From Anatilimnocola floriformis (GTDB taxonomy: Bacteria; Planctomycetota; Planctomycetia; Pirellulales; Pirellulaceae), in NCBI RefSeq assembly GCF_024256385.1, contig NZ_JAMLFW010000001.1:5332001-5396000 (forward strand): DNA of 64,000 nucleotides. The letters are read 5' to 3'. A model generated the notes under the pieces. That model worked only from the letters and a program-made list of their open reading frames with translations. It was not told where the DNA came from and ran no database searches. Positions 11,696 to 12,142 of the stretch are shown piece by piece. Position 1 is the first letter of the stretch, and every line of letters starts with the position of its first letter. The position numbers were made by a program, and so were the translations under genes.

Positions 11696-12013
11696 TCAAT
11701 GACTCGTGAACTTCAGCCCCACGATCGCCACTAGCAACAGCGCGAGAAAGAACATCCGGGCAGCATTTATGGGTTCGCCCAGGAGGATGATGCCGAGGAT
11801 GACCGTGCCGGCGGCGCCGATGCCGACCCACACGGCGTAGGCGGTGCCGATGGGAAGGGTGCGGGCCGCGACCGACAGCAAGTACATGCTGACGACGATG
11901 CCCGCGATGGTGGCTACGCTGGGCCAGAGTTTGGTGAAGCCCTCGGTGTACTTCAGGCCGATGGCCCAGCCGGTTTCGAGAAGTCCCGCGACAATCAAGA
12001 TAATCCACGCCAT
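11696..12013 (-). CDS. sugE: SMR family guanidinium exporter (Gdx/SugE)
   Basis: The protein has 105 residues and four transmembrane helices, the exact SMR size. The N-terminus is [20 protein letters not shown], with the essential Glu in helix 1 (E13). [12 protein letters not shown] follows, then the conserved [19 protein letters not shown] of helix 3, and GLKFTSH at the end. The W-x-x-G-L-K-Y and AYAVWxGIG signatures place it with SugE/Gdx rather than EmrE. Gdx dimers export guanidinium in exchange for protons. The assignment is supported by a guanidine-III riboswitch directly upstream, with its ribosome-binding site inside a switchable helix. Confidence 0.93.
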
Positions 12014-12014
12014 T

Positions 12015-12075
12015 ACGACGCTCCCTTAGTAAGGGCGTCGTCTTTGCATATCCCGGTACGGCGCGTCTCGTCGGG
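12015..12075 (-). promoter_or_regulatory. Guanidine-III (ykkC-III) riboswitch with translational expression platform
   Basis: On the minus strand the aptamer runs 12075 to 12035. It carries the class core GACGAG, then GCGCCGUACCGGG, then AAGACGACGC. P1 pairs 12075-12072 (CCCG) with 12055-12052 (CGGG). The pseudoknot pairs 12064-12058 (GCGCCGU) with 12041-12035 (ACGACGC), with one C/A mismatch. The same ACGACG segment can instead pair with CGUCGU (12020-12015), extended by CCCUU against AAGGG, which buries the Shine-Dalgarno AAGGGAG (12027-12021) 7 nt before the sugE AUG. Ligand binding would free it, giving an ON switch. The aptamer match is from memory of the class consensus. Confidence 0.85.
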
Positions 12076-12142
12076 GGCCAACAGGCCACGTTTCAACTGT
12101 AGCAGGCAAGCGGCCGCGGTCAATGTCGGCTGGCCGCAATCA

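Follow-up and report, generated by a model that had tools for sequence, protein, structure and literature searches.

A guanidine-III riboswitch upstream of a Gdx-type exporter gene in the planctomycete Anatilimnocola floriformis, a probable translational ON switch

The guanidine-III riboswitch of T. fusca (5NWQ; PMC5696562) is an H-type pseudoknot of helices P1 and P2 with an ACGAG/CGUACC/AAGACG core and the pocket nucleotides C6, G7, and G17, and it is placed upstream of an SMR exporter gene. In the published model for the class, guanidine frees the Shine-Dalgarno sequence (SD) (PMC5696562); a review gives the same prediction and adds that the class is predicted to protect mRNA from RNase E (PMC12186494). 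On the protein side, the nearest described systems are Gdx-Clo and the Gdx-subtype SMR exporters, in which W16 is conserved where Qac transporters have Gly or Ala (PMC7695847). Guanidine-II (mini-ykkC, RF01068) responds to the same ligand (PMC12186494) with an unrelated RNA fold, and in our collection it precedes other planctomycete sugE genes (L048, L181, and L183), that is, the same kind of gene in the same phylum or family. The guanidine-III class has been assigned to Actinobacteria and delta-Proteobacteria in the table of Weinberg et al. (2010) and mainly to Actinobacteria in the review (PMC12186494).

Here, we describe a locus on the minus strand of a 64-kb stretch of the A. floriformis genome (the whole stretch analyzed is called the window) that shares with T. 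fusca the P1/P2 pseudoknot, the core, the three pocket nucleotides, and the position upstream of an SMR exporter gene, and to which the ON logic published for the class would also apply. It differs from T. fusca in having C·A at pair 15:38 and a third strand with A10 and C11 (T. fusca has C15-G38, G10, and U11), in the 21 nt that lie between C41, the last base of P2, and the AUG at 12013, and in that the P2 strand is itself the anti-SD arm. We regard it as highly probable that the element, as a guanidine-III riboswitch, turns on translation of a Gdx-type guanidinium exporter when its ligand is bound; we infer ligand binding, switch direction, and transport. Translational ON control by the class is already published, and the element is otherwise ordinary. 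It adds a member to a known class, from a phylum for which the cited parts of these sources do not list that class, which is a statement about the literature and not about databases; no paper joining guanidine, riboswitch, and Planctomycetota was found in the open-licence literature. The locus would place guanidine sensing and export in Planctomycetota.

Aptamer, promoter-like site, and exporter gene

A covariance-model search with the Rfam guanidine-III family, which the preliminary description of this DNA had proposed as a check, matched RF01763 over its full length (model positions 1 to 67 of 67) at 46.6 bits, above the gathering score of 36, and E = 1.6e-6 (64-kb window, both strands, 4,227 families). 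This was the sole Rfam match at gathering score within the window and the only RF01763 match in the whole genome (8.93 Mb); when 14 control genomes were searched with the same model, a match was found in one, that of Deinobacterium chartae. The full match extends past the interval first delimited (12015 to 12075) because the model includes a GGCC-UGUU-GGCC hairpin ahead of P1 (Table 1). Within it, every letter of the guanidine-III core lies in the order and on the strand first given, P1 reads CCCG/CGGG as had been claimed, and the counterparts of C6, G7, and G17 (numbering of PMC5696562) are all present, at 12070, 12069, and 12059. Judged from the letters and the covariance model, the element is a real guanidine-III aptamer that had been named correctly.

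Table 1. Positions of the riboswitch, its neighboring signals, and the downstream gene in the window.
Feature	Positions	Strand	Basis
Promoter-like pair: −35 TTGACC (12123-12118), 16-nt spacer, −10 TACAGT (12101-12096), TG before −10	12096-12123	−	Consensus match only, 9/12
Guanidine-III (ykkC-III) aptamer, full Rfam match	12032-12092	−	RF01763
5′ hairpin GGCC-UGUU-GGCC ahead of P1	12076-12087	−	Rfam structure line; −7.3 kcal/mol
P1 5′ strand CCCG, pairs with 12055-12052	12072-12075	−	Letters
Core/third strand ACGAGAC (A5-C11, T. fusca numbering), bears pocket C6 and G7	12065-12071	−	Letters; PMC5696562
P2 5′ strand GCGCCGU (G12-U18), bears pocket guanine G17	12058-12064	−	Letters, Rfam; numbering PMC5696562
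GCGCCGUACC	12064-12055	−	Letters
P1 3′ strand CGGG	12052-12055	−	Letters
AAGACGACGC	12044-12035	−	Letters
P2 3′ strand ACGACGC (A35-C41), common to the 5′ arm of the anti-SD hairpin	12035-12041	−	Letters, Rfam
Predicted OFF-state hairpin holding the SD: 12041-12035/12021-12015 plus CCUU/AGGG	12015-12041	−	−14.9 kcal/mol; in leader MFE
Shine-Dalgarno AAGGGAG, 7 nt from AUG	12021-12027	−	Sequence
sugE/gdx, 105-aa SMR exporter, Gdx subtype (E13, W16, S42, Y59, W62)	11696-12013	−	NF008512, PF00893, PDB match

P1 was compared across 56 distinct aptamers, a count that takes only those fitting the core pattern (others were dropped), the pattern fixing C1 and C21 but not the pairing. All four pairs were kept in 56 of 56, as CCGG/CCGG in 49, CCCG/CGGG in 5 (the window's own included), and CCTG/CAGG in 2. 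We read these variants as compensatory changes, with the window's pair 3:22 being C-G where 49 of the 56 have G-C.

A promoter-like pair stops 3 nt before the aptamer match. Two such sites were found in 701 bp on both strands (shuffle mean, 0.2), and among 39 distinct upstream regions of the planctomycete set (described below), the window's included, 14 carried promoter-like pairs, compared with a mean of 0.63 and a maximum of 3 in 100 rounds of dinucleotide shuffling. Transcription would accordingly be placed near 12089, and the pair just before the aptamer, together with its recurrence in the planctomycete set, makes a transcript start 3′ of the aptamer unlikely. Terminator-based control was also considered and rejected: of two terminator-like matches, one is on the plus strand and the other, on the minus strand (12021 to 12007), spans the sugE start codon, and neither resembles an attenuator ahead of sugE.

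The gene that follows on the same strand had been described as encoding a Gdx-type exporter, and its product bears this out. It passes the SugE equivalog NF008512 narrowly (127.6 bits against a cutoff of 126), matches the SMR domain PF00893, and has as its best PDB match Gdx-Clo 6wk5, ungapped over 104 residues (E = 1e-34). E13, S42, Y59, and W62 are all present, as is W16. Given the equivalog pass, the Gdx-Clo alignment, and these residues, the product of this planctomycete sequence, likened to Gdx-Clo by sequence alone, is likely a guanidinium exporter. A Qac-type exporter was rejected on W16 and on the PDB ranking, in which Gdx-Clo is far ahead of EmrE (best E = 6.4e-11). Downstream of sugE on the same strand there is a 144-aa open frame (11612 to 11178) that matches neither Pfam nor NCBIfam at E = 0.001.

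The pseudoknot pair 15:38

The preliminary description had noted one C/A mismatch in the pseudoknot as the only blemish of the aptamer. The mismatch is present: P2 (12-18/35-41) is Watson-Crick in six of its seven pairs, and at the exception, 15:38, C12061 (C15) faces A12038 (A38). Its standing as a blemish did not hold up, as the pair is non-Watson-Crick throughout the planctomycete set (40 loci, 29 distinct aptamers), with C·A in 22 and A·A in 7. This set includes L021, the record title of which names no phylum. L022 and L024, which come from the genomes already represented by L116 and L124, are not part of it, nor are the class matches G549, G568, and G597. C·A was also found in 9 of 9 distinct aptamers of a mixed set (12 loci, of which 8 are assigned to Myxococcota by record title or tree label) and in 7 of the 8 distinct aptamers of 30 further myxobacterial loci, the eighth having U-A. 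In the actinobacterial set, 13 aptamers gave 7 C-G, 4 C·A, 1 U-A, and 1 U·G, with L134 counted as C-G and 6 of 19 loci dropped as off-pattern. The Rfam alignment shows no nonstandard mark at 15:38, which, by the print convention of Infernal, we take to mean that the family model does not penalize the mismatch.

On these counts, C·A or A·A at 15:38 is the norm of the lineage and a feature of the triple-helix region rather than a defect; in the T. fusca structure, this place is occupied by a C15-G38·G10 base triple (PMC5696562). The trait that looked like a defect is lineage-wide, and it is invisible to work resting solely on the T. fusca sequence. The same counts bear on the idea that the aptamer is decayed and nonfunctional, which its score might suggest, since 46.6 bits is the lowest of the 13 matches in the phylum (another family member reaches 66) and the pseudoknot holds a mismatch. 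Against this, the same type of mismatch occurs in every distinct planctomycete-set aptamer, the change in P1 is compensated, the pocket letters named in PMC5696562 are in place, and the promoter-like site and anti-SD hairpin are intact; we therefore consider decay very improbable.

In nearest-neighbor energies, P2 alone is worth −5.3 kcal/mol with the mismatch and −12.5 kcal/mol with a C-G pair, a cost of about 7 kcal/mol. By this estimate the mismatch would prevent P2 from forming without ligand and tilt the RNA toward OFF. In published in-line probing, RNAs of the class have P1 and P2 formed without ligand, with just the third strand docking (PMC5696562), so the planctomycete lineage may differ from the published behavior. 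One tentative proposal, to which we give clearly less than even weight, is that C·A and A·A at 15:38 mark a deep guanidine-III subtype in which P2 is too weak without ligand, so that switching would depend on the formation of P2 in addition to third-strand docking, the step proposed for the Watson-Crick T. fusca type, and the freed strand would be the anti-SD arm. Such a subtype would span Planctomycetota, Myxococcota, and scattered others, largely tracking one SugE lineage.

In the A15·A38 aptamers (L019, L021, L107, L111, L116, L117, L118, and L124), U9 replaces G9 in six of seven distinct cases, as if base triples had been rebuilt together.

Folding of the start region in the window and in related leaders

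As first described, the 3′ strand of P2 is also the 5′ arm of a hairpin that buries the sugE SD, and both the letters and the computed fold bear out this geometry. The helix ACGACGC/GCGUCGU has seven uninterrupted pairs, to which CCUU/AGGG adds four, one of them G-U in the computed fold. Since P2 and the anti-SD helix need the same seven bases, the aptamer fold and the anti-SD fold are mutually exclusive, which agrees with the original claim.

Most likely, the ligand-bound fold frees the ribosome-binding site and the pump is made as guanidine accumulates. In the mechanism we propose, transcription would begin just ahead of the aptamer and, without guanidinium, ACGACGC would quit the weak P2 and pair with GCGUCGU next to the start codon, so that the SD is buried. 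Guanidinium would stabilize the P1/P2 pseudoknot and its triple helix and so lock ACGACGC in P2, leaving a weak 4-bp hairpin alone over the SD (−0.4 kcal/mol, residual ON state) and allowing the exporter to be made. The OFF hairpin, at −14.9 kcal/mol, is far stronger than bare P2, so the decision may fall during transcription; the competitor strand starts 14 nt after P2 ends. On these energies, which are soft and leave out pseudoknot, triplex, and ligand, a switch working purely at equilibrium seems difficult, and the decision may have to be kinetic.

We estimated how much energy it takes to open the start region (−14 to +3) when the P2 strand is free and when it is tied up in P2. For the window, the cost was 11.5 kcal/mol with the strand free and 7.7 kcal/mol with it tied up; the difference of 3.8 kcal/mol was equaled by 11 of 400 permuted strands. 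These permutations, and the ease with which short GC-rich inverted repeats arise by chance, are what might be said for the view that the likeness arose by chance ahead of an SMR gene and that the hairpin in the leader is merely a constitutive weak ribosome-binding site. The Rfam E value, the single match in the genome, and the same element preceding related sugE genes in other genomes all speak against such an origin, which the covariance-model match and the fitting gene have already effectively refuted and to which we attach a negligible probability.

Among 38 distinct planctomycete-set leaders (from 40 loci, leaving out L013, for which no start was found, and one duplicate leader), the difference had a mean of 3.26 kcal/mol and a median of 1.88 kcal/mol and was at least 2 kcal/mol in 19. 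Control leaders, to which the same strand was added artificially, belong to sugE genes that lack the aptamer (n = 64 of 72 candidates; guanidine-I or -II switches occur in some, and at least one pair, L020 and L175, is near-duplicate); they had a mean of 0.58 kcal/mol and a median of 0.25 kcal/mol, with 14 of 64 at 2 kcal/mol or more (p = 0.0009 for planctomycete set versus control). The start codons of L012 and L103 appear to be misassigned, and both stay in the counts. The other sets did not differ convincingly from the control in this model: 1.73 for the mixed set (n = 12, p = 0.12), 1.21 for the actinobacterial set (n = 8 of 19 loci, p = 0.16), and 1.79 for the myxobacterial set (n = 21, p = 0.049), with p values uncorrected. 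A cruder measure, the unpaired probability of the SD with the strand blocked, gave a weak result: the mean over 51 leaders was 0.31 OFF and 0.37 ON, and 12 of the 51 were scored as switches; the window's own values, 0.23 OFF and 0.29 ON, hardly separate the states.

Half of the planctomycete-set leaders (19 of 38) gain less than 2 kcal/mol, and all eight loci of genus g3 are among them (L003, L004, L007, L008, L100, L102, L103, and L106). In g3, the sequence complementary to the 3′ strand of P2 is found largely on the 5′ side of the SD, and the start region is not closed by the P2 strand (differences of −1.5 to 1.5 kcal/mol), so the switch there may act otherwise (by steric effects, mRNA decay, or a second rearrangement). 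The SD left unburied in this one planctomycete genus is also a point for the view that a true guanidine-III aptamer controls the gene mainly through mRNA stability, the folded aptamer blocking RNase E scanning, and not through SD release; control of this kind has been reported for the class (PMC12186494, citing Richards and Belasco 2021). The window's own SD, however, sits in a hairpin that shares the P2 strand, and leaders of the planctomycete set have their start region buried by that strand more strongly than the controls do; we consider mRNA stability an unlikely main route here. SD release remains our preferred reading, and the modeled folds support the anti-SD arrangement for the window and for many, not all, of its relatives.

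Distribution of guanidine-III among genomes and SugE relatives

With the genome of A. floriformis counted each time and with filters that lose some weak matches, RF01763 was found in 13 of 392 genomes across the phylum Planctomycetota, in 36 of 397 class genomes (35 of them above the cutoff), and in 8 of 60 relatives; the same searches found none in the single other genome of the genus. For comparison, matches were found in 19 of 149 genomes in the phylum of Peterkaempfera (14 over the cutoff) and in 48 of 146 in the phylum of Myxococcus. One actinobacterial genome (G860) has two guanidine-III aptamers, L125 and L143; no SMR-like start was found downstream of L125.

The nearest of the collected SugE loci is from a Pirellula sp. 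(80%). A SugE tree of 158 rows and 109 columns, poorly resolved and with unsettled bootstrap values, groups 91 rows in one cluster, of which 79 have guanidine-III and 12 lack it. The guanidine-III rows from planctomycetes and myxobacteria fall in this cluster, as do 3 of the 15 from actinobacteria; the other 12 actinobacterial rows fall outside. At L175 (G369:C25), a SugE 81% identical to the window's has no aptamer match, and no aptamer remnant was recognizable by eye upstream of the gene, possibly a loss of the switch beside a conserved exporter.

An Rfam scan of 80 SugE loci found guanidine-III in 15, guanidine-II in 9, and guanidine-I in 7. In the other genome of the genus (G392), the best SugE match (L184) is 55% identical to the window's and is without a guanidine-III aptamer; upstream of it, two GGGACGACCC-type hairpins that look guanidine-II-like can be seen by eye, but the Rfam guanidine-II score there is 19.5 bits, short of the gathering score of 32. 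Guanidine-II is above gathering in two family members (L181 and L183), from which sugE genes and their switches may have been swapped within the family.
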